This document shows positions 1-56,916 of a stretch of 64,000 nt of DNA, piece after piece. The DNA comes from Varroa destructor (Eukaryota > Arthropoda > Arachnida > Mesostigmata > Varroidae). Position 1 is the first letter of the stretch, and each line of letters starts with the position of its first letter. A program made the position numbers and the translations under genes. The DNA is taken from contig NW_019211454.1 in assembly GCF_002443255.2 (NCBI RefSeq), positions 53,014,118 to 53,078,117 of the forward strand, in the 5' to 3' direction. The notes beneath the pieces are model-generated. The model worked only from the letters and a program-made list of their open reading frames with translations, was not told the origin of the DNA and did no database searches.

Positions 1-39
1 TAGGAAATTAACTTGCCGTATGTCACTATCTATTCACAG

Positions 40-3000
40 TTATACAATTCTTGCCGCTGAGGAGGCCAAGAAACACTCCGAGGCGAAGGATTCTTCAATC
101 GCTGTTATCTCTAACATTGGTCTTGACAAGGACGAGTACAGATTCGGCAGCACCAAGGTAGAACGCCGACGCACAAAGGACCTTTACTTTTCTTAAATTT
201 TTTTTCCATGACGTACAATCTTTCCGGAATTTTCCACAATTTGCAAACCACTAACATTTTTATTAAAAGGCCTTTAAGAGCGAAATCATTTTTGTTTCGT
301 TTGCAGTCACTCAACCAGAGAGCTCTAGTGTTTTGTGCCTAATGTGATCGGACGTTTTAACACTAATATAACTTCATGAGCTCGGTTATCATTTTAGGTA
401 TAGTTCTTGGCCTTACTTTTGTTCCTTTATACTCTATGAAAACTACACAGTAGTTGCAAGCTAGAACTCCTAAATTCATTACAGAAACCTAACATGTATT
501 GTCCTTCGGTTTTTAAATTCGCTAAACATCTGTCTTAGGTCTTAGCCTTTACTCGTATGGCATGCCTTTCAGTATGAATGATATTTCATACACACGCAGT
601 TGATTCACGGTATGCTTGTATCTGGATCGTATGCCGCGTTTGAGTTTTTATAAATATGAAACACACGTTCCTCGTAGGTCTTTTTCCGTGCCGGTGTCCT
701 CGGTCGTCTCGAGGAAATGCGCGACGAACGTTTAGCTAAGATCATGACGATGATTCAATCAGCCTGCCGGTGGTACCTCTGCAAAAAACACTTCCAGAAG
801 CTCAAGGAACAACGGTACGTAGATTTTTTATTCTAATTTTTATAACGATAATATATACATTTTTATACATCAAGTTATAATAAAAAATACTTCATCACAA
901 ATATACAACAAGACATCTTGTCATGCGTAAGAATTTAATAATGTGCAAAATTGCACGTAAAAAACTCACTAATATCCAATATATCACATATTTTTTCTTG
1001 CAGACTCGCACTGCGCGTCTTACAGAGAAACCTTCGTCAGTTCGCTCAAATGCGCAATTGGGCATGGTGGAAACTTTTTGTCAGGGTTAAACCTTTGTTA
1101 AACATGACTAAGGCTGAGGACGAGCTTAAAGGTAGGCGACGTGGTCAGGCATTAAAAAGGCAATTAATTATAGTCTATAGAAGATGCAGGTATAGGTATT
1201 CGAGGAATCACATGGATACATTTTTCAAATCAAATGATTACAATATACTTTTACAGCTTTGGAGGAGAAACTTAGAGCGGAACAAGAAAAATTCTCCAAA
1301 GAAGAAAAACTGCGCAAGGAGCTCGAGTCCCAGAACCTTAAGCTTTTGCAAGAAAAAAACGAGCTATTCTTGCAGCTTGAATCGGAGCGCACAGGCGCCG
1401 GTGATATAGAACAGCGCCTTAACAAGACGCTAGCTCAAAAAAATGAAGTCGAACGTCAGCTGCGCGAAATGGAGGAACGCTTCCATAAGGAAGAGGATAA
1501 TGCTAATAAACTAAATCAATCCAAGAGGAAACTTGAAAACGAGATTTCCGCTCATAAGAAGGATATCGAAGATTTGCAGCTTTCTTTGCAAAAGGCCGAG
1601 CAGGACAAGCAATCCAAGGACCATCAGATTCGTAATTTAAATGACGAAATAGCACATCAGGAAGAACTTGTTGCCAAGTTGAACAAGGAAAAGAAGGCCT
1701 TGCAAGAGCAAGGAGGTAAGACTATGGAAGACCTGCAGGCCCAAGAAGACAAGGTTAATCATCTGAACAAGGTAAAAACGAAACTTGAGCAAACCCTTGA
1801 TGAGCTGGAGGATTCCCTTGAGCGTGAGAAGAAGATACGTGCTGATCTTGACAAAGCAAAGAGGAAGGTTGAGGCCGACCTCAAGCTTGCTCAAGAAGCG
1901 GTCATAGATCTAGAAAAAAACAAGAAAGAGATGGAGCATGCTATTCAGCGTAAAGATAAGGAGCTCGCTGCTTTGGCAACTAAGCTCGAAGAGGAGCAAT
2001 TTCAGATCAGCAAACTACAGAGGCAGATCAAGGAACTACAGCAGCGTATTGAGGAACTTCAGGAAGAACTTGAGGCCGAGCGTCAGGCCCGTTCCAAAGC
2101 CGAGAAGCAGCGTGCCGACCTCGCCCGAGAGCTTGAACAGCTCTCGGAGCGCTTGGAGGAAGCTGGTGGAGCAACATCCGCTCAGATCGAGCTTAACAAG
2201 CGCCGTGAGGCTGAACTCGGCAAACTTCGTCGAGATCTCGAGGAAGCCAACAACCAACATGAGCAAATCGTATCCGCCCTTCGTCAGAAGAGTAGCACGA
2301 CTGTAGCAGAACTTAGCGACTCAATCGACAACCTAAACAAAAGCAAGGCCAAGTAAGTTAATGGTGTAACTATATTTTCCTGGCATACCTACTGCAGTTT
2401 ACCTATTTAAAAGAAATCTTCCTAAAACGCTCGACAAGGCACTTAGCCAGCATACGATTAAGGTCGATGATAATAGATTCTCGCAATCGACAATGCGAGA
2501 ACGTACAATAAAAAAAATAGTGGTGTCACAGACGACTTACTGCACTATTGAACGCACCATCTCGTGGTAACTACAGGGCACTTGCCAACAAAAAAGACCA
2601 ACCTTCCCAGTCATCCTAATTGCACATTTGATCCCGTCCTTATCATATTCTCTTTTCAAGGCTTGAAAAGGATTGCGCCGGATACAAGGCCCAGGCGTTA
2701 GATTCTCAGTCCTCTCTGGACCATGCACTGAAGCTTCAGGTACATTACGCCAATTTAATTCTCGCATTATGTTCAGTTTCTGAACTTATGTGAAACGTAC
2801 GTTTTAGTTAAAAATTTTACATCTTGTTCTGGAGAAGATAACCTTTATATACATATATCTATTGCTGACACTTAAACGGCAGTGTATAACGTCTATCATG
2901 TATGATCATTAGGCCAATGCCGAGCGCCAAGTTAAGATGCTAGAAGTACAGCTGCAAGATATCCAGTTCAAGCTTGACGAATCGAATCGAACGGTAAATG

Positions 3001-12740: not shown

Positions 12741-15700
12741 ATGGCAGCGCAAGACCCTGATCCGAGTGAGTTCTTGTACGTCTCCGCAGAAATGAAGCGG
12801 AAGGATGCTACGAAGCCGTACGATGGCAAGAAGATGACTTGGGTACCCGATGAGAAAGAGGGCTTTGTTCTCGGGAACATCGAGTCCCTTGAGGGTGATA
12901 AGGCCGTCGTCGAAACCCCCGGAGGCAAAAAGACATTCAAAAAGGACCAGCTTCAACAGGTCAACCCTCCCAAGTACGAGAAGTGCGAAGACATGTCCAA
13001 TATGACTTATCTCAACGACGCTTCCGTACTGCATAACCTAAAGGAACGTTACTACGCCAACCTAATTTACGTAAGTATTTTGGATTCGCAATATAATCAC
13101 AAAAATTAATAGGGTTGATGTTTAACATTCCACAACCGCTTTATAGATATTGTACGTACTCAGTTGAATATTTTTGAACATTGCATTTAATTATAAGAAG
13201 TCACGCTAACGTCCGATGAGAATCGGATTGGCTAATAGTTGCTCAATTTTTGTTCTATACAGACTTACTCGGGTCTCTTCTGCGTCGCCATCAACCCGTA
13301 CAAAAGATTTCCCATCTATACCCCTCGTGTAGTTATGATCTACAAGGGCAAAAGGAGGACTGAGGTGCCACCTCATGTATTCGCTATTTCGGACGGTGCT
13401 TACATGCACATGCTCACGGACAACGAAGATCAGTCTATGCTTATTACGTTAGTATATACGCGCCTTCAACCATACACAAGCTATAAGCCCAACAAAATCT
13501 AAAACGAACTTTGGTGTCACCAGCTATCCCTATATTTTTTTGTACTATAAGACCTTCACAGAAGGTAAAAAAACTTTCCCATAAACTTTCAAAAATGCCT
13601 TTATTCTACAAAATAATTGTAAAAGTCTAGTCTCATCTGACTCCCTAAAAGGCTATTTTACCTTCTAAAAGCTTTTCCTTGGCCGACGGTCGGTCAGCTT
13701 CGAACGCTTGAACCTTTTACTGCATGAGAAACGCGAAATACACACTCTCAAGTTCGCAACCACACATGCGTCCCTCCGGCTAGCGTTGCTTACGTTTTTG
13801 TTTCCTTAAGAGACATCCCTTTTTTTTCACATTAAGCTCATATCCCCTGTATTATTCGTTCCTGTACCTTTAATAGAGTTGCAGAGTAATCTCTCGCGTT
13901 TTTTATTTGAATTGACATTGAACTTTTCATTATGGAAATCTTTTTTTTTTCGCGAAAAAATCTTCGTATTTTTTGTACGAATGTTTAGATGGCTAGATGA
14001 TGTCTAGACACGTGACTTATGCATAATTACGTTTTTACACCGCCTTCGCTACAAATCAAGCATTACAGAAACATTCTAAGACCTTTCTTCAGCTCCGATT
14101 GCTGCAAACAATAATCAAAACTAGGAGGAACATAGGCATTCTATGCATCTATAAAAATGGGTACCCGCGATATATAAGTTCCTTTTTTTCGAACTGTCGC
14201 ACTAATACCTTGGTTGTTAGAGTAGATTTCTTAAGTTATTGTACCCAATACCTCTCAGACAACTTCCCAATGTAAATCACTGTTTCTTTGCATTCTTAGT
14301 AACCTAGAAAAGAGCTGTCTATTATTAATCTTTCTGCGCTGTCATAAAATTCTCAAGCGAGCGCATTCGTTTTTTTAGGCACTTGCATTTGCGATAAATA
14401 TTGCAACATATTGGCATTTATTAGACTTGTCGCGATTAGTAATACTCTAAATTGGCCAACCTAAGATTTGAGCTTAACTCGAGAATCACTAAAAGGCCAA
14501 TTCAATTATGATAAGCAACAACTAAGTTTGGAAAACCTCCCACAGCGGTGAATCCGGAGCCGGAAAGACTGAAAACACGAAAAAAGTAATTTCGTACTTC
14601 GCCAACGTCGGTAAAAGTGACAGAAAGGCTGATGCTGATAAGAACAAGCCCTCACTTGAAGACCAGATCGTGCAAACTAATCCTGTTCTTGAGTCGTTCG
14701 GTAACGCTAAAACCACCCGTAACGATAACTCTTCCCGATTTGGTAAATTCATCCGTATTCATTTTGGCCCCACTGGCAAACTAGCCGGTTGTGATATTGA
14801 GACCTACCTGTTGGAGAAAGCTCGTGTGATATCTCAGCAGCCACTTGAGCGTTCTTATCACATCTTCTACCAATTGATGTCCGGTAAAATTCCTGACATG
14901 AAGAAGAATCTCCTGCTTTCCGACAACATATATGACTACCATTATGTATCTCAGGGTAAGGTCGAGATCCCCAACGTCGACGACGGTGAAGAAATGGGTT
15001 ACACCGATGAGGCCTTCAACATTCTAGGCTTCGACAAGGATGAAAAAGATGGTGTGTACAGGATCACTGCTTCTGTCATGCACTTCGGTACGATGAAGTT
15101 TAAGCAGAGACCTCGTGAAGAGCAAGCTGAACCCGACGGCACTGAAGAGGGTGAAAAAGTCGCGAAGCTTCTGGGTACCGATCCGACTGAGCTGTACAAG
15201 AACTTGACGAAACCCAGGATTAAGGTCGGTACCGAATTTGTGACCAAGGGTCAAAGTCAGGGCCAGGTTATGTCTGCTATCGGTGCCCTGTCTAAAGCCA
15301 TGTTCGATCGTCTGTTCAAGTTCTCGTCAAGAAATGTAACGATACCCTTGACACCAAGCAGGCCGTAAACACTTCATCGGTGTACTTGATATTGCCGGTT
15401 TTGAGATCTTCGACTACAACGGCTTCGAGCAGCTCTGCATCAATTTCACCAATGAGAAACTGCAGCAGTTCTTCAACCACCACATGTTCGTGTTGGAACA
15501 GGAGGAGTACAAGAGGGAAGGCATTGACTGGGTTTTCATCGATTTTGGTCTTGATCTGCAGGCCTGCATTGAGCTAATTGAGAAGCCCCTGGGTATTTTG
15601 TCCATCCTAGAAGAAGAGTCTATGTTCCCTAAGGCTACTGACAAGACGTTTGAGGACAAACTGAACAGCACCCATCTTGGCAAGTCGGCTCCATTCCAGA

Positions 15701-18700
15701 AGCCAAAACCACCGAAGAGCAAGGATATTGGCCCCGCCCACTTTGCTATTGCCCACTATGCCGGCACCGTTTCCTACTCTATTACTGGCTGGCTCGAGAA
15801 GAACAAGGATCCTCTTAACGACTGCGTCGTTGACCAGCTCAAGAAGAGTAACCTGAAGCTTCTGCAGACCATCTTTGAAGATCACCCTGGTCTTGGTGGA
15901 GATGCTAAGGCTGAGGGCGGCGGCAAAGGTGGTGGTCGCAAGAAGGGTTCTGGCTTCCAGACAGTTTCTGGCCTGTATAGGGTACGTAGAATCATATTTT
16001 TATGTCCAAAGACCTTAGGTATTTTCGCGTAGTTTATCTCAGTCAATGAGAAGATCGAACCAAATAACGTATCCGCCTAGAATAATCTGTCTATTGTCTT
16101 GTAGTTCTGTGTCCTAAAGTATTTCCATTATGTTCGCCTACAGGAACAATTAAATAAGCTGATGCACACCCTCCACTCGACACATCCTCATTTCGTGCGC
16201 TGTATCATCCCCAACGAGTTTAAGCAACCCCGTGTTATCGATGCCCATCTTGTTATGCACCAACTGACCTGTAACGGTGTGCTTGAGGGTATTCGTATCT
16301 GTCGTAAAGGTTTCCCCAATAGGATGGTGTACCCTGATTTCCGTCAGCGGTAAGCTGCATGGCAAGAAACAAAATATTTTAAGCAAATACGTGTTGTTTT
16401 TTTTCCTGTAAAACTTTCACTAAAGTCAAAGTAAAGTTTATAAAGAACAGATAAAAAAATTGATCTACTTTTAACACCATATTTGGTATGCAGTTACAAC
16501 ATCTTGGCTCCCAATGCGGTCCCTAAAGATTTCGCCGGCGAGCTGAAGGATGCTGGCAGTATGCTGATTTCTCAGACTGGTCTCGATAAGGACGAGTATC
16601 GTATTGGACATACTAAGGTACGACGATCTGACAGTTTTTTACATTTCGCAGGTATACAATTCTGGCTGCTTCGGAAGCTAAGAAGCATTCTGAGGCGAAG
16701 GATGCCTCTATCGCAGTTATTTCAAACATTGGTCTCGACAAGGATGAATATCGCTTCGGTAGCACTAAGGTTGAATGCCACTTGATGGTTTTCACGTTTA
16801 ATGTTGGATCCCGGCTGTTGTCCGGAGAGGACATATGTCCTATAATGTGGCTAACGGTGTTACAAAACTGCCGTTAGAAAATACTCGTTGTCTTCAGCAG
16901 TGTCTGTTGCTGTACCCTGCATGTGATAAGCAAATGTGTTATATATACGCTCTAATTTTCTCTCACGAAATCAACTTTCTTTTTTTTTTCCATTAAATTT
17001 AATCCCATGTAAGGTGTTCTTCCGTGCCGGAGTTTTGGGTCGCCTTGAGGAAATGCGTGACGAGCGTCTGGCTAAAATAATGACCATGATCCAATCGGCC
17101 TGTCGTTGGTACCTTTGCAAGAAACATTTCCAGAAGCTGAAGGAACAACGGTAAATAATTTACCAAAGCTTTATCGCTAGTTATCAGACTCTACGTCAAA
17201 ATGTATGTATGTGTAATAAGTTAATTGTCTAGTGTTGCAAAAAGTAAAATTACAGCATTATTTCATTTTTAGCCTGGCGCTCCGTGTTCTCCAGAGGAAT
17301 CTTCGCCAGTTCGCCCAAATGCGCAATTGGGCTTGGTGGAAACTCTTTGTTAAAGTTAAGCCTCTTCTTACTATGACAAAGGCTGAGGACGAGCTTAAAG
17401 GTAAAGATATCAAACAACAATTATTGCAATATACATAATATATATTTTTAGATAAATAAAAATTTGTACTTACCTAATCATATTCAGAAAAAAAAAGCTT
17501 AAACATATTTTTTAATCGTTTATAATATCTGACGTAAAGAATACTTCGTAACTTTGACATGCAGCTCTTGAAGATAAGCTCAAGGAGGAGATGGAGAAAC
17601 TGGCTAAAGAGGAGAAGCTCCGCAAAGAACTCGAGGCCCAGAACGCCAAGTTGGTCCAGGAGAAGAACGAGCTTTTCCTCCAATTGGAAGCCGAGCGTAC
17701 CGGTGCGGGTGACATTGAGCAGCGACTCAACAAGGTGAATTCTCAGAAAACCGACCTGGAGCGCCAAGTTCGCGAGTTGGAGGAGAAGCTGCACCGTGAG
17801 GAGGATAATGTCAACAAGCTGAACCAAAACAAACGAAAGCTTGAGGGAGAAATCAGTGCTCACAAGAAGGACATTGAGGATCTTCAATTGTCTCTGCAGA
17901 AGGCCGAGCAGGATAAACAATCGAAGGACCACCAGATCCGTAATCTTAACGACGAGATTGCTCAGAAGGAGGAACTCATAGCCAAGCTAAACAAGGAGAA
18001 GAAGTCCCTGCAAGAGCAGGGAAGCAAGACTACCGATGATTTGCAAGCACAGGAGGACAAAGTGAACCATCTTAACAAGGTGAAAGCTAAACTGGAGCAG
18101 ACCCTTGATGAGCTCGAGGATTCTCTTGAGCGTGAGAAGAAAGCCCGTGCCGACCTCGACAAGGCCAAAAGGAAGGTTGAGGGAGACCTAAAACTCGCCC
18201 AGGAGGCCGTGGCCGACCTCGAGAAAAATAAGAAGGAACTCGAACAGACCATTCAGCGCAAGGATAAGGAGCTTGCCGCTCTAGCCACCAAACTCGAGGA
18301 CGAGCAATCCCAAATTGCCAAACTGCAGAAACAGATAAAGGAGCTGCAACAGCGCGTCGAAGAGCTTCAGGAAGAGCTTGAAGCTGAGCGTCAGGCCCGT
18401 TCTAAGGCTGAAAAACAACGTTCAGACCTTGCCCGTGAGCTCGAACAGTTATCAGAGCGCCTAGAAGAGGCTGGAGGCGCCACGTCTGCCCAAATTGAGC
18501 TAAACAAGCGCCGCGAGGCTGAGCTTGGTAAGCTCCGCCGTGACCTCGAGGAGTCCAACTCGCAACATGAGCAGATCGTTTCGGCCCTCCGCCAAAAGAA
18601 CAATGCCACCGTGGTCGAGATGACAGACACCATCGACAATCTCAACAAGCACAAGGCCAAGTATGTATCTAGCATAAACCTCTTATGTCTAGCATACCCC

Positions 18701-21700
18701 TCCCTAAAATATTTATGCTATTATTTTAGTTGTTGTTCAATAAGCAGCTGATACCAAGAGCTCGTTTATATCAATGTTCGTGAACATGATCTAATCTAAA
18801 ACTTAAACTCAAAGGCTCGAGAAGGAAAGGTCCCAGTTCAAGTCAGAGGCCGATGATATGAGACAGAACGTTGAGCACGTTCAGCGAGAGAAGGTACTCG
18901 AGTTTTGGTAATAAAAATAATAAGTTAAGCGATGCAGAGTCGCACTTTCGAGCGCATCGTGGAGCAATCAAATTCAGCAATTTTAACCCTCTAGATCTCA
19001 CTAACCGCATTTTGGAACCCTGTCCTAAATATAACCTTCTTTAAAGACTTGAAAAGGACTGCGCTGGCTTCAAGTCTCAGGCTATCGATGCCCAATCTTC
19101 TCTGGACCACGCTGTGAAGCTTCAGGTATTGTTCTCAATGAAATTTCGGTTGTCACTATATGGCATTATGTTTACACCTACACGATGTCAACGGAAGAGT
19201 AATATCATAGTGATACAAGTACCCACTCACTTCTGCATATTAACTCTGCATTTTTTATATCTAAAGAGCTGGACCTCTACCTAGAAGTTGAGTTGAGAGG
19301 ACTGTTTTTCTAATTTTTCTAACCGTTGACTCAGCATTTGACTAGCATCTTGATCCTGCACCATAATTATGAGCATTTGCATGTGCAAGCGTCTACGTAA
19401 AATCATTTAACCAGGATACTCTCTTTAGGCCAATGCTGAGCGTCAGGTGAAGATGCTTGAGGTACAGCTGCAGGATACTCAGTACAAGCTGGATGAATCG
19501 AATCGTACCGTTAATGATTTTGATGCTGCGAAGAAGAAATTGGCCCTCGAAAATTCCGAACTCCAGCGTCAGCTTGAGGAGGCTGAGAGTCAGATCAGCC
19601 AGCTGTCCAAACAAAAGGCTTCGCTTGCCAGCCAAGCTGAGGAAGCCAAACGCTCTGCTGATGAGGAGAACAGGGTGCGTCATGTATATAACTCCTAATA
19701 ACAGGAGTAAATGGTTTCGAGTATAATATATAAAGTATAGTGGAATACACTTGCTCGTTACTTAAATAACAAAATACATGTTGTTGGTATCATGGGAGCA
19801 CTGCGGTATTATTCAGTCTACATACTGTTCTTTTTATATAGGAGCGTGCTGCTATCCTTGGCAAGTACCGTAATATTGAGCATGACCTCGACAACCTGCG
19901 TGAGGCTCTAGAAGAGGAACAGGAAGCTAAGGCTGATCTTCAGCGTCAACTTTCCAAGGCAAACGCTGATGCTCAGCTCTGGAGGAGCAAGTATGAATCC
20001 GAGGGCCTTGCTCGCCTCGAGGAGCTTGAAGAGTCTAGGAAGAGGCTTCAGATTAAGTTGCAGGGTGCCGAGGAGATAATCGAGGGCTTGAATGCCAAGG
20101 TTTCTGGCCTTGAAAAAACGAGGAGTCATCTGCAGGGAGAACTCGATGATATGCATGCTGAGGTCGACCGCGCCCAGCAGCTGGCCGTTCAGCTTGAAAA
20201 AAGGCAGAAATCGTTCGATAAGGTCATAGCCGAATGGAAGGCGAAGACCGATGATCTTGCTGCCGAGCTGGATGCCTCTCAGAAGGAATGCAGAAACTAT
20301 TCCACCGAAGTGTTTAAGCTTCGTGCTGCTTATGATGAGTCGCAGGAACGCTATGAGGCTGTCAAGCGGGAGAACAAGAATCTCCAGGATGAACTCAAGG
20401 ATCTCCTCGACCAGCTTGGTGAGGGTGGCAGGTCCGTGCATGAACTCGAGAAAGCTCGTAAGAGGCTCGAGCTAGAGAAGGACGAGCTCCAGCACGCCCT
20501 CGAAGAAGCTGAGGCTGCGCTTGAGCAAGAGGAAAACAAGGTTGGTTTGAAAACAGAAAAACAATTAACATTGTTATTTATATAGTTATGGTAATTCGCA
20601 TTTATAAATAGGCTTTCGGTAATCTCATGCTGGCTTTCTGCTTCTAGGTGCTCCGCGCTCAGTTGGAGCTTAGCCAAGTACGTCAGGAGATCGAGCGCCG
20701 CATCCAGGAGAAGGAGGAAGAATTCGAAAACACTCGCAAGAACCATCAACGCGCCCTCGATTCTATGCAGGCTTCCCTTGAGGCTGAGGCTAGAGGTCGC
20801 GCTGAGGCTCTTCGGCTGAAGAAAAAACTGGAATCCGACATCAACGAGCTTGAGATCGCTCTTGACGGAGCCAACAAAGCAAATGCTGAGGCTCAGAAGA
20901 CCATCAAGCGATACCAGCAGACGATGAAGGACATGCAGACACAAATTGAAGATGAGCAGAAGGCCCGTGACGAGGCTCGTGATCAGTATGCCAATGCTGA
21001 ACGCCGCGCCAACCAGTTGCACGGATCCCTCGAGGAAGCTAAACAGCTTTTGGAGCAGTCTGAGCGTGCACGTCGCTCAGTTGAGGGTGAGAACATGGAG
21101 CTGCGCGAAGCTAACAACGAAATGGCCGCTAACAACGCTTCTCTTGGAATGGCCAAAAGGAAACTTGAGGGTGAGATGGCTGCTCTGCAGGCCGATCTGG
21201 ATGAGATGATTAACGAGTGCAAGGCGTCCGAAGAGAAAGCCAAAAAGGCCATGGTTGATGCCGCTCGTCTCGCCGATGAGCTCCGCGCCGAACAGGAACA
21301 TGCTTCTTCTCAGGAAAAGATGCGCAAGGCTCTTGAGATTCAAATGAAGGATCTTCAGGTCCGTCTAGATGAGGCCGAGGCTGCTGCCCTTAAAGGAGGC
21401 AAGAAGCTCATTGAAAAACTCGAGCACAAGTGTCGCCAGCTGGAGTCTGATTTGGAAACTGAGCAACGCCGCCATGGCGATGCTGCTAAGAATGCCAGGA
21501 AAGGAGAGCGTAGAATTAAGGAGCTGCAGTTCCAGGCCGAAGAAGACCGCAAAAACCATGAGCGTATGCAGGAGCTTGTCGATAAGCTCCAGCAGAAAAT
21601 CAGCACTTACAAACGGCAGATCGAGGAGGCTGAAGAGATTGCTGCTATGAACCTGGCCAAGTACCGCAAAGCCCAGCAAGAGCTTGAGGATGCTGATGAG

Positions 21701-21778
21701 CGCGCCAATCTTGCCGAACAGACCGTTGCCAAGCTCCGGGCCAAAAACCGTTCCTCAGTCAGCATGGCCCGCGAGTAG
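12741..21778 (+). CDS. Mhc: Muscle myosin heavy chain, copy 2 (frameshifted in motor exon)
   Basis: Coding exons are 12741-13070 (from ATG; exon starts 12671), 13263-13447, 14546-15981, 16144-16349, alternative converters 16494-16617 or 16652-16769, 17014-17150, 17273-17400, 17565-18660, alternative hinges 18815-18893 or 19047-19125, 19429-19674, 19842-20540 and 20648-21778 (TAG). Landmarks are the SH3-like N-terminus ([13 protein letters not shown]), the P-loop GESGAGKT encoded just after the 14546 acceptor, switch I NDNSSR, switch II DIAGFE, a Gly/Lys-rich loop 2, the SH2/SH1 cysteine helix, an IQ motif and a coiled-coil rod. Two single-T deletions relative to copy 3, near 15322 and 15363, shift the frame by -2 and give TAA at 15366-15368. 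The rest of the gene is open and its splice sites are intact. It is either a very young pseudogene or carries assembly errors. ATG 12741 is chosen because it starts the conserved MAAQDPD N-terminus. Confidence 0.93.
15321..15368 (+). other. Mhc: Double 1-nt deletion and premature stop in Mhc copy 2
   Basis: Against copy 3 (31613-31662), copy 2 lacks one T in AAGTTTCTC (now AAGTTCTC, around 15321) and one T in AGGCTCGTAAA (now AGGCCGTAAA, around 15363). The net change is -2 nt. The frame reads into TAA at 15366-15368, after about 445 codons and just before switch II. Everything else in this 1,436-nt exon matches copy 3 almost base for base. Confidence 0.9.
16494..16617 (+). other. Mhc: Alternative converter exon A, Mhc copy 2
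   Basis: This 124-nt exon encodes [13 protein letters not shown]...DEYRIGHTK, 41 complete codons after a shared split Arg codon. It has a TATGCAG acceptor and an AAG|GTACGA donor. Its phase equals that of exon B, so either one can join the 16349 donor to the 17014 acceptor. It codes the converter, the region that sets lever-arm mechanics and muscle speed, and corresponds in position to the Drosophila Mhc exon 11 set. Confidence 0.9.
16652..16769 (+). other. Mhc: Alternative converter exon B, Mhc copy 2
   Basis: This 118-nt exon encodes [13 protein letters not shown]...DEYRFGSTK (39 complete codons). It follows exon A after an intron of only 34 nt (16618-16651). Splicing A to B is therefore probably sterically impossible, and it would also repeat the converter. 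It is homologous to the converter exon visible at the left edge in copy 1 (40-157). Confidence 0.9.
18815..18893 (+). other. Mhc: Alternative S2-hinge exon A, Mhc copy 2
   Basis: This 79-nt exon encodes [17 protein letters not shown]... and ends VQREK. It has the same phase and length as hinge exon B (19047-19125), so only one can be used per mRNA without duplicating the segment. It occupies the position of Drosophila exon 15a/15b, which sets the S2 hinge. The equivalent exon in copy 1 is decayed. Confidence 0.85.
19047..19125 (+). other. Mhc: Alternative S2-hinge exon B, Mhc copy 2
   Basis: This 79-nt exon encodes [16 protein letters not shown]... and ends HAVKLQ. It uses the TTTAAAG acceptor and the CAG|GTATTG donor. 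The 153-nt gap to exon A contains no other coding sequence. Confidence 0.85.
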
Positions 21779-29032: not shown

Positions 29033-32000
29033 ATGGCAGCGCAAGACCCTGATCCGAGTGAGTTCTTGTACGTCTCCGCAGAAATGAAGCGGAAGGATGC
29101 TACGAAGCCGTACGATGGCAAGAAGATGACTTGGGTACCCGATGAGAAAGAGGGCTTTGTTCTCGGGAACATCGAGTCCCTTGAGGGTGATAAGGCCGTC
29201 GTCGAAACCCCCGGAGGCAAAAAGACATTCAAAAAGGACCAGCTTCAACAGGTCAACCCTCCCAAGTACGAGAAGTGCGAAGACATGTCCAATATGACTT
29301 ACCTCAACGATGCTTCTGTACTGCATAACCTAAAGGAACGTTACTACGCCAACCTAATTTACGTAAGTATTTTGGATTCGCAATATAATCACAAAAATAA
29401 ATAGGGTTGATGTTTAACATTCCACAACCGCTTTATAGATATTGTACGTACTCAGTTGAATATTTTTGAACATTGCATTTAATTATAAGAAGTCACGCTA
29501 ATGTCTGATGAGAATCGGATCGGCTAATAGTTGCTCAATTTTTGTTCTATACAGACTTACTCGGGTCTCTTCTGCGTCGCCATCAACCCGTACAAAAGAT
29601 TCCCCATCTATACCCCTCGTGTAGTTATGATCTACAAGGGCAAAAGGAGGACTGAGGTGCCACCTCATGTATTCGCTATTTCGGACGGTGCTTACATGCA
29701 CATGCTCACGGACAACGAAGATCAGTCTATGCTTATTACGTTAGTATATACGCGCCTTCAACCATACACAAGCTATAAGCCCAACAAAATCTAAAACGAA
29801 CTTTGGTGTCACCAGCTATCCCTATATTTTTTTGTACTATAAGACCTTCACAGAAGGTAAAAAAACTTTCCCATAAACTTTCAAAAATGCCTTTATTCTA
29901 CAAAATAATTGTAAAAGTCTAGTCTCATCTGACTCCCTAAAAGGCTATTTTACCTTCTAAAAGCTTTTCCTTGGCCGACGGTCGGTCAGCTTCGAACGCT
30001 TGAACCTTTTACTGCATGAGAAACGCGAAATACACACTCTCAAGTTCGCAACCACACATGCGTCCCTCCGGCTAGCGTTGCTTACGTTTTTGTTTCCTTA
30101 AGAGACATCCCTTTTTTTTCACATTAAGCTCATATCCCCTGTATTATTCGTTCCTGTACCTTTAATAGAGTTGCAGAGTAATCTCTCGCGTTTTTTATTT
30201 GAATTGACATTGAACTTTTCATTATGGAAATCTTTTTTTTTTCGCGAAAAAATCTTCGTATTTTTTGTACGAATGTTTAGATGGCTAGATGATGTCTAGA
30301 CACGTGACTTATGCATAATTACGTTTTTACACCGCCTTCGCTACAAATCAAGCATTACAGAAACATTCTAAGACCTTTCTTCAGCTCCGATTGCTGCAAA
30401 CAATAATCAAAACTAGGAGGAACATAGGCATTCTATGCATCTATAAAAATGGGTACCCGCGATATATAAGTTCCTTTTTTTCGAACTGTCGCACTAATAC
30501 CTTGGTTGTTAGAGTAGATTTCTTAAGTTATTGTACCCAATACCTCTCAGACAACTTCCCAATGTAAATCACTGTTTCTTTGCATTCTTAGTAACCTAGA
30601 AAAGAGCTGTCTATTATTAATCTTTCTGCGCTGTCATAAAATTCTCAAGCGAGCGCATTCGTTTTTTTAGGCACTTGCATTTGCGATAAATATTGCAACA
30701 TATTGGCATTTATTAGACTTGTCGCGATTAGTAATACTCTAAATTGGCCAACCTAAGATTTGAGCTTAACTCGAGAATCACTAAAAGGCCAATTCAATTA
30801 TGATAAGCAACAACTAAGTTTGGAAAACCTCCCACAGCGGTGAATCCGGAGCCGGAAAGACTGAAAACACGAAAAAAGTAATTTCGTACTTCGCCAACGT
30901 CGGTAAAAGTGACAGAAAGGCTGATGCTGATAAGAACAAGCCCTCACTTGAAGACCAGATCGTGCAAACTAATCCTGTTCTTGAGTCGTTCGGTAACGCT
31001 AAAACCACCCGTAACGATAACTCTTCCCGATTTGGTAAATTCATCCGTATTCATTTTGGCCCCACTGGCAAACTAGCCGGTTGTGATATTGAGACCTACC
31101 TGTTGGAGAAAGCTCGTGTGATATCTCAGCAGCCACTTGAGCGTTCTTATCACATCTTCTACCAATTGATGTCCGGTAAAATTCCTGACATGAAGAAGAA
31201 TCTCCTGCTTTCCGACAACATATACGACTACCATTATGTATCTCAGGGTAAGGTCGAGATCCCCAACGTCGACGACGGTGAAGAAATGGGTTACACCGAT
31301 GAGGCCTTCAACATTCTAGGCTTCGACAAGGATGAAAAAGATGGTGTGTACAGGATCACTGCTTCTGTCATGCACTTCGGTACGATGAAGTTTAAGCAGA
31401 GACCTCGTGAAGAGCAAGCTGAACCCGACGGCACTGAAGAGGGTGAAAAAGTCGCGAAGCTTCTGGGTACCGATCCGACTGAGCTGTACAAGAACTTGAC
31501 GAAACCCAGGATTAAGGTCGGTACCGAATTTGTGACCAAGGGTCAAAGTCAGGGCCAGGTTATGTCTGCTATCGGTGCCCTGTCTAAAGCCATGTTCGAT
31601 CGTCTGTTCAAGTTTCTCGTCAAGAAATGTAACGATACCCTTGACACCAAGCAGGCTCGTAAACACTTCATCGGTGTACTTGATATTGCCGGTTTTGAGA
31701 TCTTCGACTACAACGGCTTCGAGCAGCTCTGCATCAATTTCACCAATGAGAAACTGCAGCAGTTCTTCAACCACCACATGTTCGTGTTGGAACAGGAGGA
31801 GTACAAGAGGGAAGGCATTGACTGGGTTTTCATCGATTTTGGTCTTGATCTGCAGGCCTGCATTGAGCTAATTGAGAAGCCCCTGGGTATTTTGTCCATC
31901 CTAGAAGAAGAGTCTATGTTCCCTAAGGCTACTGACAAGACGTTTGAGGACAAACTGAACAGCACCCATCTTGGCAAGTCGGCTCCATTCCAGAAGCCAA

Positions 32001-35000
32001 AACCACCGAAGAGCAAGGATATTGGCCCCGCCCACTTTGCTATTGCCCACTATGCCGGCACCGTTTCCTACTCTATTACTGGCTGGCTCGAGAAGAACAA
32101 GGATCCTCTTAACGACTGCGTCGTTGACCAGCTCAAGAAGAGTAACCTGAAGCTTCTGCAGACCATCTTTGAAGATCACCCTGGTCTTGGTGGAGATGCT
32201 AAGGCTGAGGGCGGCGGCAAAGGTGGTGGTCGCAAGAAGGGTTCTGGTTTCCAGACAGTTTCTGGCCTATATAGGGTACGTAGAATCATATTTTTATGTC
32301 CAAAGACCTTAGGTATTTTCGCGTAGTTTATCTCAGTCAATGAGAAGATCGAACCAAATAACGTATCCGCCTAGAATAATCTGTCTATTGTCTTGTAGTT
32401 CTGTGTCCTAAAGTATTTCCATTATGTTCGCCTACAGGAACAATTAAATAAGCTGATGCACACCCTCCACTCGACACATCCTCATTTCGTGCGCTGTATC
32501 ATCCCTAACGAGTTTAAGCAACCCCGTGTTATCGATGCCCATCTTGTTATGCACCAGCTGACCTGTAACGGTGTGCTTGAGGGTATTCGTATCTGTCGTA
32601 AAGGTTTCCCCAATAGGATGGTGTACCCTGATTTCCGTCAGCGGTAAGCTGCATGGCAAGAAACAAAATATTTTAAGCAAATACGTGTTGTTTTTTTCCT
32701 GTAAAACTTTCACTACAGTCAAAGTAACGTTTATAAAGAACAAATAAAAAAATTGATCTACTTTTAACACCATATTTGGTATGCAGTTACAACATCTTGG
32801 CTCCCAATGCGGTCCCTAAAGATTTCGCCGGCGAGCTGAAGGATGCTGGCAGTATGCTGATTTCTCAGACTGGTCTCGATAAGGACGAGTATCGTATTGG
32901 ACATACTAAGGTACGACGATCTGACAGTTTTTTACATTTCGCAGGTATACAATTCTGGCTGCTTCGGAAGCTAAGAAGCATTCTGAGGCGAAGGATGCCT
33001 CTATCGCAGTTATTTCAAACATTGGTCTCGACAAGGATGAATATCGCTTCGGTAGCACTAAGGTTGAACGCCACTTGATGGCTTTCACGTTTAATGTTGG
33101 ATCCCGGCTGTTGTCCGGAGAGGACATATGTCCTATAATGTGGCTAACGGTGTTACAAAACTGCCGTTAGAAAATACTCGTTGTCTTCAGCAGTGTCTGT
33201 TGCTGTACCCTGCATGTGATAAGCAAATGTTTATATATACGCTCTAATTTTCTCTCACGAAATCAACTTTCTTTTTTTTTTCCATTAAATTTAATCCCAT
33301 GTAAGGTGTTCTTCCGTGCCGGAGTTTTGGGTCGCCTTGAGGAAATGCGTGACGAGCGTCTGGCTAAAATAATGACCATGATCCAATCGGCCTGTCGTTG
33401 GTACCTTTGCAAGAAACATTTCCAGAAGCTGAAGGAACAACGGTAAATAATTTACCAAAGCTTTATCGCTAGTTATCAGACTCTACGTCAAAATGTATGT
33501 ATGTGTAATAAGTTAATTGTCTAGTGTTGCAAAAAGTAAAATTACAGCATTATTTCATTTTTAGCCTGGCGCTCCGTGTTCTCCAGAGGAATCTTCGCCA
33601 GTTCGCCCAAATGCGCAATTGGGCTTGGTGGAAACTCTTTGTTAAGGTTAAGCCTCTTCTTACTATGACAAAGGCTGAGGACGAGCTTAAAGGTAAAGAT
33701 ATCAAACAACAATTATTGCAATATACATAATATATATTTTCAGATAAATAAAAATGTGTACTTACCTAATCATATTCAGAGAAAAAAAGCTTAAACATAT
33801 TTTTTAATCGTTTATAATATCTTACTTAAAGAATACTTCGTAACTTTGGCATGCAGCTCTTGAAGATAAGCTCAAGGAGGAGATGGAGAAACTGGCTAAA
33901 GAGGAGAAGCTCCGCAAAGAACTCGAGGCCCAGAACGCCAAGTTGGTCCAGGAGAAGAACGAGCTTTTCCTCCAATTGGAATCCGAGCGTACCGGTGCGG
34001 GTGACATTGAGCAGCGACTCAACAAGGTGAATTCTCAGAAAACCGACCTTGAACGCCAAGTTCGCGAATTGGAGGAGAAGCTGCACCGTGAGGAGGATAA
34101 TGTCAACAAGCTGAACCAAAACAAACGAAAGCTTGAAGGAGAAATCAGTGCTCACAAGAAGGACATTGAGGATCTTCAATTGTCTCTGCAGAAGGCCGAG
34201 CAGGATAAACAATCGAAGGACCACCAAATCCGTAATCTTAACGACGAGATTACTCAGAAGGAGGAACTCATAGCCAAGCTAAACAAGGAGAAGAAGTCCC
34301 TTCAAGAGCAGGGAAGTAAAACTACCGATGACTTGCAAGCTCAGGAGGACAAAGTGAACCATCTTAACAAGGTGAAAGCTAAACTGGAGCAGACCCTTGA
34401 TGAGCTCGAGGATTCTCTTGAGCGTGAGAAGAAAGCCCGTGCCGACCTCGACAAGGCCAAAAGGAAGGTTGAGGGAGATCTAAAACTCGCCCAGGAGGCC
34501 GTGGCCGACCTCGAGAAAAATAAGAAGGAACTCGAACAGACCATTCAGCGCAAAGATAAGGAGCTTGCCGCCCTAGCCACCAAACTCGAGGACGAGCAAT
34601 CCCAAATTGCCAAACTGCAAAAACAGATAAAGGAGCTGCAACAGCGTGTCGAAGAGCTTCAGGAAGAGCTTGAAGCTGAACGTCAGGCCCGTTCTAAGGC
34701 TGAAAAACAACGTTCTGACCTTGCCCGTGAGCTCGAACAGTTATCAGAGCGCCTAGAAGAGGCTGGAGGCGCCACGTCTGCCCAAATTGAGCTAAACAAG
34801 CGCCGCGAGGCTGAACTTGGTAAGCTCCGCCGTGACCTCGAGGAGTCCAACTCGCAACATGAGCAGATCGTTTCGGCCCTCCGCCAAAAAAACAATGCCA
34901 CTGTGGTCGAGATGACAGACACCATCGACAATCTCAACAAGCACAAGGCCAAGTATGTATCTAGCATAAACCTCTTATGTCTAGCATACCCCTTCCTAAA

Positions 35001-38000
35001 ATATTTATGCTATTATTTTAGTTGTTGTTCAATAAGCAGCCGATACCAAGAGCTCGTTTATATCAATGTTCGTGAATATGATCTAATCTAAAACTTAAAC
35101 TCAAAGGCTCGAGAAGGAAAGGTCCCAGTTCAAGTCAGAGGCCGATGATATGAGACAGAACGTTGAACACGTTCAGCGAGAGAAGGTACTTGAGTTTTGA
35201 TAATGAAAATAATAAGTTAAGCGATGCAGAGTAGCACTTTCGAGCGCATCGTGGAGCAATCAAATTCAGCAATTTTAACCCTCTAGATCACACTAACCGC
35301 ATTTTGGAACCCTGTCCTAAATATGACCTTCTTTAAAGACTTGAAAAGGACTGCGCTGGCTTCAAGTCTCAGGCTATCGATGCCCAGTCTTCTCTGGACC
35401 ACGCTGTGAAGCTTCAGGTATTGTTCTCAATGCAATTTCGGTTGTCACTATATGGCATTGTGTTTACACCTACACGATGTCAACGGAAGAGTAATATCAT
35501 AGTGATACAAGTACCCACTCACTTCTGCATATTAGCTCTGCATTTTTCTATATCTACCTAAAAGTTGAGTTAAAAGGACTGTTTTTCTAATTTTTCTAAC
35601 GATTGACTCAGAACTTGACTAGCATCTTGATCCTGCACTGCAATTATAAGTATTTGCATGTGCAAGCGTCTACGTAAAATCGTCTAACCAGGATACTCTC
35701 TTTAGGCCAATGCTGAGCGTCAGGTAAAGATGCTTGAGGTACAGCTACAGGATACTCAGTACAAGCTGGATGAATCGAATCGTACCGTCAATGATTTTGA
35801 TGCCGCCAAGAAGAAATTGGCCCTCGAGAATTCCGAACTCCAGCGTCAGCTTGAGGAGGCTGAGAGTCAGATCAGCCAGCTGTCCAAACAAAAGGCATCG
35901 CTTGCCAGCCAAGCTGAGGAAGCCAAACGCTCTGCTGATGAGGAGAACAGGGTGCGTCATGTATAAAACTCCTAATAACAGGAGTAAATGGTTTCGAGTA
36001 TAATATATAAAGTATAGTGGAATACACTTACTCGTTACTTAAATAACAAAATACATGTTGTTGGTATCACGGGAGCACTGCGGTATTATTCAGCCTACAT
36101 ACTGTTCTTTTTATATAGGAGCGTGCCGCTATCCTTGGCAAGTACCGTAACATTGAGCATGACCTCGACAACCTGCGTGAGGCTCTAGAAGAGGAACAGG
36201 AAGCTAAGGCTGATCTTCAGCGTCAACTTTCCAAGGCAAACGCTGATGCTCAGCTCTGGAGGAGCAAGTATGAGTCCGAGGGCCTTGCTCGCCTCGAGGA
36301 GCTAGAAGAATCTAGAAAGAGGCTTCAGATTAAGTTGCAGGGCGCCGAAGAGATAATCGAGGGCTTGAACGCCAAAGTTTTTGGTCTCGAAAAAACGAGG
36401 AGCCATCTGCAAGGAGAACTCGACGACATGCATGCTGAGGTCGACCGCGCCCAGCAGCTGGCTGTTCAGCTTGAAAAAAGGCAGAAATCGTTCGACAAGG
36501 TTATAGCCGAATGGAAGGCGAAGACCGATGATCTTGCTGCCGAGCTGGATGCCTCTCAGAAGGAGTGCAGAAACTACTCCACCGAAGTGTTTAAGCTCCG
36601 TGCTGCTTATGATGAGTCACAGGAGCACTATGAGGCTGTCAAGCGGGAGAACAAGAATCTCCAGGATGAACTCAAGGATCTCCTCGACCAGCTTGGTGAG
36701 GGTGGCAGGTCCGTGCACGAACTCGAGAAAGCTCGTAAGAGGCTCGAGCTAGAGAAAGACGAGCTCCAGCACGCCCTCGAAGAAGCTGAGGCTGCGCTTG
36801 AGCAAGAGGAAAACAAGGTTGGTTTGAAAACAGATAAACAATTCGTATTGTTATTTATACAGTTATGGTAATTTGCATTTACATATAGGCCTGAGATAAT
36901 CTCATGCTGGCTTTCTGCTTTTAGGTGCTCCGCGCTCAGTTGGAGCTTAGCCAGGTACGTCAGGAGATCGAGCGCCGCATCCAGGAGAAGGAGGAAGAAT
37001 TCGAAAATACTCGCAAGAATCACCAACGCGCCCTCGATTCTATGCAGGCTTCCCTTGAGGCTGAGGCTAGGGGTCGCGCTGAGGCTCTTCGGCTGAAAAA
37101 AAAACTGGAATCCGACATCAACGAGCTTGAGATCGCTCTTGACGGAGCCAACAAAGCAAATGCTGAGGCTCAGAAGACCATCAAGCGATACCAGCAGACG
37201 ATGAAGGACATGCAGACACAAATTGAAGATGAGCAGAAAGCCCGTGACGAGGCTCGTGACCAGTATGCCAATGCTGAACGCCGCGCCAACCAGTTGCATG
37301 GATCTCTCGAGGAAGCTAAACAGCTTTTGGAGCAGTCTGAGCGTGCACGTCGCTCAGTTGAGGGTGAGAACATGGAGCTGCGCGAAGCTAACAACGAAAT
37401 GGCTGCTAACAACGCTTCTCTTGGAATGGCCAAAAGAAAACTTGAGGGTGAGATGGCTGCTCTGCAGGCCGATCTGGATGAGATGATTAACGAGTGCAAG
37501 GCGTGTGAAGAGAAGGCCAAAAAGGCCATGGTTGATGCCGCTCGTCTAGCCGATGAGCTTCGCGCCGAACAGGAGCACGCTTCTTCTCAGGAAAAGATGC
37601 GCAAGACTCTTGAGATTCAAACGAAGGACCTCCAGGTCCGTCTAGATGAGGCCGAGGCTGCTGCCCTTAAAGGAGGCAAGAAGCTCATTGAAAAACTCGA
37701 GCACAAGTGCCGTCAGCTGGAGTCTGATTTGGAAACTGAGCAGCGCCGCCATGGCGATGCTGCCAAGAATGCCAGGAAAGGAGAGCGTAGAATTAAGGAG
37801 ATGCAGTTCCAGGCCGAAGAAGACCGCAAAAACCACGAACGTATGCAGGAGCTTGTCGATAAGCTCCAGCAGAAAATCAGCACTTACAAGCGGCAGATCG
37901 AAGAGGCCGAAGAGATTGCTGCTATGAACTTGACCAAGTACCGCAAAGCCCAGCAAGAGCTTGAGGATGCTGATGAGCGCGCCAATCTTGCCGAGCAGAC

Positions 38001-38055
38001 CATTGCCAAGCTCCGGGCCAAAAACCGTTCCTCAGTCAGTATGGCCCGCGAGTAG
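29033..38055 (+). CDS. Mhc: Muscle myosin heavy chain, copy 3 (complete)
   Basis: The coding exons are 29033-29362, 29555-29739, 30838-32275, 32438-32643, converters 32787-32910 or 32945-33062, 33306-33442, 33565-33692, 33857-34952, hinges 35107-35185 or 35339-35417, 35706-35951, 36119-36817 and 36925-38055. They sum to 5,799 nt with converter A (1,932 residues) or 5,793 nt with B (1,930), normal for a muscle myosin. The motor holds P-loop GESGAGKT (173-180), switch I NDNSSR (231-236), switch II DIAGFE (454-459) and SH2/SH1 Cys694/Cys704. The neck carries IQ-type light-chain sites, then a coiled-coil rod to ...SVSMARE. The protein should form thick filaments in muscle. Rod substitutions against copy 2 include Ser to Phe in a KVSGLEK motif and Ser to Cys in ECKASEEK. 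The motor segment from P-loop to loop 2 is one unbroken 1,438-nt exon. Confidence 0.97.
32787..32910 (+). other. Mhc: Alternative converter exon A, Mhc copy 3
   Basis: Its coding content is the same as 16494-16617. The donor is AAG|GTACGA, followed after only 34 nt (32911-32944) by exon B. Confidence 0.9.
32945..33062 (+). other. Mhc: Alternative converter exon B, Mhc copy 3
   Basis: This 118-nt exon is equivalent to 16652-16769. It has the TTTCGCAG acceptor, is in phase with exon A, and is mutually exclusive with it by both spacing and coding logic. Confidence 0.9.
35107..35185 (+). other. Mhc: Alternative S2-hinge exon A, Mhc copy 3
   Basis: This 79-nt exon ([17 protein letters not shown]...) is intact. 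It is the counterpart of 18815-18893 and of the decayed copy 1 exon. Confidence 0.85.
35339..35417 (+). other. Mhc: Alternative S2-hinge exon B, Mhc copy 3
   Basis: This 79-nt exon ([16 protein letters not shown]...) has the same phase as hinge A. It is the counterpart of 19047-19125 and 2661-2739. Confidence 0.85.
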
Positions 38056-40407: not shown

Positions 40408-41443
40408 ATGATGCTAGCCATGTTACAACCATGGCAGCCGACCTGGCTAATGGGCCCTGGAGATGGCTACATGCGTAGACTCTTTCTTCGTCGACGTCTC
40501 AAGATGTCATCGGATCATCCTCTCAGACTATCTCTTTACCGGCCATTAGAACCTCGCAGTCAGTGCAAAAATATACGGCGCCGTCAACCCACTTTGGATG
40601 ACTTGGTAAACCCGATTCCATCTTTGAAACCATTCGTCGACCCGCCGAATAATTTAGAGTCTGCGTATAAATTCGAGCGAATTTGTAAGAAGTAGAATTT
40701 CCAGAGCACTTTCAATCAGAAATATATGTAAAAACTACAGCAGTAACATCATTGGGAATGCACTGCTTCATCCACTTAGGTGGCAACGGAATAATACTGT
40801 TAACGAGGTACGAGCAGAAATGCAGCTTCCTTCCAATCTGCGGAATTTAGAAGACTTGAACGTCGAATTGGACGAAGCGACTCGAATAATCACATTAAAG
40901 GCTCGACATGTCGTTCATCCTGATAACTGCCGAGTTTTGAATTAGGAGTACTCTCAGCGGCTGGACGATTCAGTTGACTTAAGCCACCTCCAAGTACCAG
41001 TCAATATTTGCAAAGGTAAACTTGAAATCACAGCACCTCTCCAACCAATTAACCCATCTGACAAAGCCACTTCCCATACAGTGGAAACAGGCCCCGAGAG
41101 TGTTGATAGGAAAAAAGTTGTTCACAGTGAAGAGGAACAATCACCACAATCGGATGTTCAAATGACCACTTCCCATGCAGTGAAAACAGGCATCGAGACT
41201 ATCGATAAGAAAAAAGTTGTCCAGAGTGAAGAAAGACAATCACCACAATCAGATGTCGAAACTACTAAAGAAAATAAGAGTGGTATGAAAGACGCTACGA
41301 TCACTGAGAAAGGTGAACAGGATCAAGCAGAAAGAAATGGCGCAATCCGTGAGCGTGCGATGGAAATCGAAGACATAGGCGTTGACGAAGAGTCCGACCG
41401 CATTTCCATCTCACCAAGTGGGACTTATAGTGTGAACTGTTAA
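40408..41443 (+). pseudogene. Small heat shock protein-like pseudogene (paralogue of 55869-56735)
   Basis: The reading frame starts at ATG 40408 (MMLAMLQPWQ, matching MFVSVLQPWE of the intact paralogue) and ends at a stop after 40695. Homology then continues in the +1 frame from about 40670. In that frame lie an alpha-crystallin-like segment (AEMQLPSNL...NVELDEATR...), the conserved YSQRLDDSVDL and the strand ending LEITAPL. A TAG at 40943-40945 interrupts it, where the paralogue has Trp. The tail to 41443 is open and ends with EIEDIGVDEESDRISIS, shared with the paralogue. It contains an internal duplication around KKVVHSEE and KKVVQSEE. One frameshift plus one nonsense codon indicate a pseudogene, unless both are sequence errors. 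AATAAA follows at 41557-41562. Confidence 0.7.
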
Positions 41444-55868: not shown

Positions 55869-56735
55869 TCACTCGGTAAATGAGATCGACATCTTGTCGC
55901 TTTCCTCGTCTGGCCCAATATCTTCAATCTCGATAGGCTTCCAATTAATCGGTCGAGTTAGTTTATTTTCTTGCTGTTGGCTTGAACTCATACGAGTGTC
56001 AATCTCAACTAAACTTCTGTTATCTCTCGTTTCAGCAGATGCCTGGACGTCAGCTCTCATTTGATTTGACCGTAAGGCTAAAGAGACATGCTTGAGAGGC
56101 GCCCGCAACTCAAGTACACCCTCGTGGGGGTTCAGGTTAGCCTTAATTTGATTCAGTTGAATTGCCTCATCAAGACGTTGCGAGTATTTCCATCGTGGTG
56201 AGGTATAATGACAGCTACCGCCATGAGTCTTTAACCTGTTGTTGTCAACAGCACAAACAGTCACCATACGTGTTGATTCATCGAGCTCGATGTTAAAATC
56301 ATCGGAACTTTCCAGGTCGAACGGAAGTTGCAGTCGACCATAATACTCGCTGGATTTGTCGTCTAGTGTCCATTGAATTATCTCAGGCGCTCTGTTGACT
56401 TTTGAAACATCATCGCGAACCGCTGAAGCCATACGTAATTGGTCCAATGACAAAAGTTTACTAAAGCCTTCAATCATAGTATCCAATCTTCGCTCCGCTG
56501 GTGTATAATTGCATTTGTGCAACGTCTCACAATCGCTGCCATACTGGAAACGGCGCACGGGTTTTGACTCATTATTACACGGGTTTAGTTTCGATCGACG
56601 CCAAATAACAGACTTCATATCCGCCAAGCTGCGATGATTATGGCCGTCTTGGTGCCTACAGCAACGGCTACCACCGCGTATTGGCCCACCAGAGAACACC
56701 TCGGCCTCCCAAGGCTGTAAAACGCTCACAAACAT
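55869..56735 (-). CDS. Divergent small heat shock protein (alpha-crystallin/Hsp20-like)
   Basis: This is an intronless gene of 288 residues. The only in-frame ATG near the 5' end is at 56735. It aligns with the start of the broken paralogue at 40408 (both have LQPW five residues later), so it is chosen. Residues about 145-225 look like an alpha-crystallin domain: FNIELDESTRMVTV, the YSQRLDEAIQL strand region and GVLELRAPL at the end. The C-terminal tail has KPIEIEDIG, which contains an I-x-I motif of the kind small heat shock proteins use to dock between dimers, then an acidic DEESD segment. Small heat shock proteins are ATP-independent holdases. The long N-terminal arm (about 140 residues) is unusual. 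Family assignment is by manual motif matching. Confidence 0.65.
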   Translation of the reverse strand: MFVSVLQPWEAEVFSGGPIRGGSRCCRHQDGHNHRSLADMKSVIWRRSKLNPCNNESKPVRRFQYGSDCETLHKCNYTPAERRLDTMIEGFSKLLSLDQLRMASAVRDDVSKVNRAPEIIQWTLDDKSSEYYGRLQLPFDLESSDDFNIELDESTRMVTVCAVDNNRLKTHGGSCHYTSPRWKYSQRLDEAIQLNQIKANLNPHEGVLELRAPLKHVSLALRSNQMRADVQASAETRDNRSLVEIDTRMSSSQQQENKLTRPINWKPIEIEDIGPDEESDKMSISFTE

Positions 56736-56916
56736 TCTACGTTTGCTGGTTTGTGTTTTCAAGTTAATGAACGACCACTGGTATTCCTAAACCTGGCGTT
56801 ACTTCAAATGCACTTCACGAACCAGATTCTTCGACATACGTCTGCTAAATGAGTACCTAATTCCTTTAGCAGATGAGTGTTTCACAATTCTACAATGGAA
56901 AGCTACTTAGTGCGCT

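Follow-up and report, generated by a model that had tools for sequence, protein, structure and literature searches.

A 34-nucleotide gap between alternative converter exons as a probable splicing switch in tandem muscle myosin genes of Varroa destructor

Muscle myosin heavy chain (Mhc) genes lie in tandem on contig NW_019211454.1 of the mite Varroa destructor (assembly GCF_002443255.2), and the window analysed here, a stretch of 64,000 nucleotides (positions 53,014,118 to 53,078,117 of the forward strand), contains two complete genes and a truncated one. Matches to the myosin-head profile in the contigs of the genome, obtained by a search that covered 366,193,577 bases in 112 contigs, reveal that the array extends to the left beyond the window and consists of four copies, numbered 0 to 3; the head of copy 0 is found about 24 kb to the left of the window, and the remainder of copy 1 is likewise to its left. 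A separate Mhc gene, outside the array, is located on C3; over the 6.5 kb searched there it showed one converter exon and no second one. In the genes of the array a single fused exon of about 1.44 kb covers the motor region between the P-loop and loop-2 (14546-15981 and 30838-32275), so that alternative exons inside that stretch are impossible there; the gene on C3 retains three introns across the same region. Exon E3 of copy 2 carries two single-base deletions in comparison with copy 3 (15320-15364, about 43 nt apart) that break the motor frame and could reflect a genuine loss or else an error of sequencing within a near-identical repeat. The features on which the following analysis is based are collected in Table 1.

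Table 1. Features of the Mhc array in the window; positions are counted from its first letter
Feature	Position	Strand	Remarks
Copy 1, final 39 nt of the 40-nt A-B gap	1..39	+	First G and degenerate exon A left of the window
Copy 1 converter exon B	40..157	+	118 nt
Copy 2 Mhc coding span	12741..21778	+	Two 1-nt deletions in E3 vs copy 3
Copy 2 exon E4, upstream of the switch	16144..16349	+	Ends CAGCG|GT, phase 2
Copy 2 converter exon A	16494..16617	+	124 nt, 41-letter peptide
Copy 2 A-B gap	16618..16651	+	34 nt; CTGAC 16628-16632, predicted branch A 16631; T6 tract; CAG acceptor
Copy 2 converter exon B	16652..16769	+	118 nt, 39-letter peptide; weak donor AAG|GTTGAA
Copy 2 exon E6, downstream of the switch	17014..17150	+	Enters phase 0
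Copy 2 tail-hinge alternative exon a	18815..18893	+	
Copy 2 tail-hinge alternative exon b	19047..19125	+	
Copy 3 Mhc coding span	29033..38055	+	E1-E8 open; other exons from splice sites and open frames
Copy 3 exon E4	32438..32643	+	
Copy 3 converter exon A	32787..32910	+	124 nt
Copy 3 A-B gap	32911..32944	+	34 nt; CTGAC 32921-32925, predicted branch A 32924
Copy 3 converter exon B	32945..33062	+	118 nt
Copy 3 exon E6	33306..33442	+	
Copy 3 tail-hinge alternative exon a	35107..35185	+	79 nt
Copy 3 tail-hinge alternative exon b	35339..35417	+	79 nt, 153 nt downstream of a

The segment under study, comprised between ...YPDF.QR and VFFRAG, aligns with the muscle myosin chains 8exw and 5w1a, which are Drosophila structures, and corresponds to the converter; the boundaries of its exon are shared by P0122 and P0124 of Tropilaelaps and by P0125 of Varroa. 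Two consecutive exons, A and B, of 124 and 118 nt, are available for this segment in copies 2 and 3, and both enter in phase 2 (CG|N) and leave in phase 0. The A and B peptides are 53% identical in copy 2 and 43% in copy 0; adjacency, identical phases and similar length and sequence are the features of a cluster-10 pair, the name given by Kollmar and Hatje to the converter alternative exons of arthropod Mhc (PMC3912159). The 34-nt gap with GT and AG ends that the original prediction had described in both copies was re-measured at both places and confirmed, with the same sequence, GTACGACGATCTGACAGTTTTTTACATTTCGCAG. This agreement counts as one observation and not two, since the 500-nt blocks surrounding the switch show 99-100% identity between copies 2 and 3, which rules out using them as independent support for each other; their identity is the product of recent homogenisation or duplication, and it is copies 0 and 1 that supply the independent support.

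In copy 0 (L010) the A/B pair is intact, its two exons lying 36 nt apart and encoding an A peptide of 41 letters and the B peptide YAILAAQEATKHAKPNDATAAVISAIGLDRDEHRFGVTK. For copy 1, an exon A had been predicted just outside the left end of the window. The position proved correct: a G directly precedes the window, the gap (GTAGGAAATTAACTTGCCGTATGTCACTATCTATTCACAG) is 40 nt long and before it lies an exon A of 115 nt (L009:4003-4117). An obviously working exon was not what it turned out to be, however, as this exon is open but degenerate (YKILALNATPANYAAGGKESSFMRVNLNKHDFRCPLTE), its peptide sharing 34-36% identity with those of the three further A exons used for comparison. The gap thus measures 36, 40, 34 and 34 nt in copies 0, 1, 2 and 3, all four lengths having been re-measured.

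Estimates of substitution (NG86) indicate how long these copies have been separate. For exon B, dN is 0.045 and dS 2.75 between copies 1 and 2, and dN is 0.256 and dS 1.79 between copies 0 and 2; for exon A, dN between copies 0 and 2 is 0.126 and dS is not computable and was taken as saturated. From these values copies 0, 1 and 2 are judged to be old paralogues in which the A and B peptides are nonetheless constrained. With the exception of the degenerate exon A of copy 1, the exons group by type rather than by copy and, because the A exons resemble A exons and the B exons resemble B exons across copies, the pair is older than the gene duplications. The neighbouring introns have changed length among copies, from 243 to 520 nt for the one between B and E6 and from 96 to 144 nt for the one between E4 and A, but the gap only between 34 and 40 nt, and in paralogues of such age its shortness is retained rather than accidental.

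A gap of 34 nt had been described as too short for splicing. As a universal rule this does not stand, because introns of about 25 bp occur in some ciliates (PMC5014332) and splicing takes place in humans for introns as short as 43, 49 and 56 nt (PMC4463651), so the claim can only be specific to this genome, where it rests on the background sampled here. The 11 other introns of copy 3 are at least 107 nt long (the 153-nt gap of the tail hinge, discussed below, is not counted) and the shortest measured intron of the array, in copy 1, has 96 nt. Elsewhere in the genome, intron lengths were estimated by subtracting three times the profile gap from the DNA gap between neighbouring matches within 20 kb and 20 profile positions, which is an approximate measure, and 86 of the 87 estimates are about 101 nt or longer. 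The minimum is 138 nt among the 39 estimates from other myosin genes, the separate Mhc gene on C3 included (61 of 76 rows used, after dropping 14 rows of the array and a near-full-length single-exon match), and 101 nt among the 12 from chaperonin genes (21 of 23 rows), where the shortest case was confirmed in the sequence as exactly 101 nt. Among the 36 kinesin estimates (66 of 66 rows) the minimum is 26 nt, followed by 113 nt. The 26-nt value is an artefact: the candidate intron is a 26-nt tandem duplication with respect to a near-identical copy, which has one open frame. The two kinesin-like stretches concerned (L022 and L023, at G000:C2:38609200-38610700 and 38635900-38637400) are about 26 kb apart and identical at 1388 of 1458 aligned columns, and in the one with the tandem duplication the frame is shifted. 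The 86 estimates are a small sample of a genome with 94,154 introns of mean length 3,299 nt (PMC6773775), and the survey is blind to short introns divisible by three, which can be read through within one match. In-frame inserts inside matches are no longer than 66 nt in the 27 myosin rows looked at and than 36 nt in 15 chaperonin rows, and in kinesins they measure 51, 63, 69, 75, 192, 192, 195 and 312 nt, those of 51-75 nt being devoid of stops; inserts of 33-75 nt are probably coding.

In copies 0, 2 and 3 a branch-like motif and a pyrimidine tract lie close behind the donor of exon A. In copies 2 and 3 the motif CTGAC, and in copy 0 CTAAC, fit the consensus CTRAY and place the predicted branch A at +14 and +16, counted from the first base of the donor, in both cases 20 nt from the AG end; these sites are predicted by the motif alone. 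A pyrimidine-rich stretch follows, so that copies 0 and 2/3 share a module made of 8-10 nt of donor, the common ATCTRACAGT, then pyrimidines and AG. The CTRAY motif is absent from the gap of copy 1, which has TTAAC instead, with its A at +12 and 28 nt from the AG end. Since the entire gap is 34-40 nt long, any branch site inside it lies at most 40 nt from the donor of A, and the predicted spacing is below the limit of about 50 nt for interference of the alpha-tropomyosin type. On these grounds the A-to-B junction looks sterically blocked. The donors of A and B are GTACGA, GTGCGA, GTAGGA, GTTGAA, GTAGAG and GTAGAA, none of which resembles a U12-type donor. The U1 match in copies 2 and 3 covers 6 of 9 positions for the donor of A and 4 of 9 for that of B (GTTGAA), the latter below the 5-7 of 9 of the 11 other copy 3 donors scored, and B might therefore be used rarely.

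The reading frame offers a second safeguard. In copy 3 the A-only and B-only frames are open through the modelled exons, E1-E8, and encode 1214 and 1212 amino acids. The large motor exon of copy 2, the copy to which the original coordinates refer, carries the two deletions. Both exons are 1 mod 3 in length, and therefore inclusion of both or skipping of both breaks the frame: with A and B together a stop occurs at amino acid 771, ten codons beyond the A-B junction, with neither exon at 742, 22 codons after E4, and with retention of the gap at 834. The original prediction mentioned the shared phase without drawing this conclusion. Exclusion at the protein level would thus be largely assured even if the steric block leaked. 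It had been proposed that steric hindrance enforces exclusion by itself; the blocking looks supported by the predicted branch positions, whereas "by itself" has to be given up, as loss of frame also excludes.

Another pair of alternative exons is predicted in the rod of copies 2 and 3, with exons of 79 nt that are also 1 mod 3 and encode peptides of 26 letters each. We match it to the published cluster-11. Its gap is 153 nt, so that exclusion is predicted in one and the same gene with and without a short gap, and these genes do not need a short gap in every case. In copy 1 only the second tail-hinge exon is intact, and an apparent decayed first exon, lacking a proper acceptor, is seen at about 2430-2510; the Tropilaelaps protein P0124 still contains the first tail-hinge exon. 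Together with the degenerate exon A, this decay suggests that copy 1 is seemingly fixed on the B and b forms. In Tropilaelaps P0122 both tail-hinge alternatives appear to be present, joined by a few odd residues (QREKVLKFRLEKDC), which is probably an error of the gene model.

From all these data we consider it probable that A and B are tandemly duplicated, mutually exclusive converter exons of the cluster-10 type, in which the joining of A to B is sterically blocked and the leaks lose the frame. U1 at the donor of A and SF1/U2 at the branch site of B would be unable to share the short gap and, as the two are not accommodated together on it, A could not be spliced to B. Exon E4 would then join either A, whose donor would in turn join E6, or B, with A skipped, and leaked products would be out of frame and destined to be cleared by nonsense-mediated decay. 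The winner would be set by the donor of A against the acceptor of B combined with its weak donor, tuned by tissue factors, and the outcome would be two motors with different converter sequences and hence different kinetics.

Other explanations have to be weighed against this one. Frame and nonsense-mediated decay alone could give apparent exclusion, with A-B splicing occurring and its products being degraded, and the gap would then be a leftover of a tight duplication. The stops reached by all three aberrant products and the 1 mod 3 length of both exons would suit such an explanation, as would the tail-hinge pair, where exclusion would not depend on a short gap, and the fact that 377 of 629 human clusters of mutually exclusive exons (60%) include exons whose length is no multiple of three (PMC5740500). 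We regard it as unlikely, however, because an intron of 34 nt would be far below the 86 estimates obtained elsewhere and because the gap remained steady across old paralogues while a neighbouring intron doubled. Slightly less likely still, in our opinion, is that exon B is dying in copies 2 and 3, where A would be effectively constitutive, B-type converters being provided by copies 0 and 1. The poor U1 match of the B donor points in this direction, and so do the Tropilaelaps annotations, in which the copy-2-like P0122 has A and the copy-1-like P0124 has B; yet the B exons of copies 1 and 2 differ at only 2 of 39 residues despite a dS of 2.75, and the frame, acceptor and branch-like motif of B are intact.

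A genuine ultra-short intron, with the transcript containing both exons as a non-productive off-state, would agree with the GT/AG ends, the branch-like motif and the existence of the ciliate and human introns mentioned above, but the early stop in its product and the lack of any comparably short intron among the 86 estimates make it very improbable. Base-pairing between docking and selector RNA elements is a known mechanism for insect exon clusters such as Dscam, and a competition of this kind could in principle set the exclusion here as well; since no ungapped inverted repeat of at least 12 nt was found between E4 and E6 of copy 3 (32438-33442), in a coarse test on one copy, we deem it the least probable of these explanations. 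The switch formed by steric block and frame loss is, from what the sequence offers, likely to be real, retained and doubly protected, with steric and frame safeguards acting together.

More tentatively, and with a confidence that stays somewhat below an even chance, this switch can be placed in an evolutionary frame. The steric arrangement may have survived at least two old gene duplications with its length kept to 34-40 nt, the donor of A and the branch block of B having merged, in copies 0 and 2/3, to form a minimal module; copy 1 may have lost both "A" alternatives, and the converter isoforms would be divided between a splicing choice and fixed gene copies.

The annotated proteins of mites give an indirect hint, at the level of annotation, as to which exon is used. 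For residues 700-900 of the A isoform, the closest proteins are two Mhc of Tropilaelaps mercedesae (96% and 85%) and a Mhc of Varroa destructor (79%), after which come another mite and ticks, none above 72%; two longer-scoring rows, from a rotifer and a bird, are at 46-54%. Exon A is annotated in P0122, and exon B in P0124 and in Varroa P0125, in which all 39 B residues are equal to those of copy 0. The search for further proteins with exon B gave 6 matches out of 10 candidates, with P0124 as the closest (93%) and the others, which include three new proteins (P0241-P0243), at 44-64%. In copies 2 and 3 we would expect A to be the default and B the regulated choice.

Both the enforcement of exclusion by steric and frame constraints and the converter exons of mite Mhc are already known, and the Varroa genes are a fresh, well-resolved example of them. 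Metaseiulus occidentalis is also a mesostigmatan mite. It has four Mhc genes, three of which (Mhc3/Mhc4/Mhc5) are in tandem and have cluster-10, two of these also having cluster-11 (PMC3912159). The similarity to Varroa is close, as both show tandem genes with a converter pair, an additional Mhc outside the array and cluster-11 in some copies only; unlike Metaseiulus, the Varroa array has four copies, one of which, copy 1, is seemingly without both "A" alternatives. Gap lengths and branch spacings are given here for Varroa, whereas the accessible part of the Metaseiulus account contains neither a gap length nor a mechanism (PMC3912159). Among the papers listed for Varroa or Tropilaelaps there was no work on Varroa Mhc splicing, which is weak evidence.

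The best parallel for the proposed block is found in exons 2 and 3 of rat alpha-tropomyosin, in which the donor lies 42 nt before the branch site and thereby prevents assembly across the intron (PMC6572816). The upstream donor is too near the downstream branch site for efficient joining in alpha-tropomyosin and probably also in Varroa; the block is experimental in alpha-tropomyosin, whereas in Varroa the even shorter spacing, with the branch A at +14 or +16, is predicted from sequence. In humans, 57 of 629 clusters of mutually exclusive exons (9%) have a donor-branch distance below 50 and are counted as potential steric interference (PMC5740500). A short distance and lengths not divisible by three are thus each found in part of the human clusters; in Varroa the two safeguards are present together in a total gap of 34-40 nt. 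The converter exon exists in alternative versions also in insect Mhc, as exon 11, for which the arthropods studied have three to five variants, all except the last with a GC donor (PMC2257972); Varroa differs in having two variants, both with GT donors.

With spacings of 34, 36 and 40 nt in one genome, these genes would be a compact natural test of the limit on the distance between a donor and the next branch site, and the pair with the 153-nt gap offers a contrast to the short-gap pair within the same gene. The array also suggests that splicing isoforms and tandem gene copies trade places in the muscle motor of a bee parasite of economic importance. If the evolutionary reading proposed above is true, it would provide both a natural series for the spacing limit and a case of splicing isoforms turning into separate genes.

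The window includes a few further open reading frames. Those at 40946-41443 (+) and 55869-56786 (-), in opposite orientation, share the motifs YSQRLD... and EIEDIG.DEESD..SIS; no significant Pfam family was found for either, and we take them to be, possibly, diverged small heat-shock-like paralogues. The one at 63143-63643 (-) belongs to the Mob1/phocein family.
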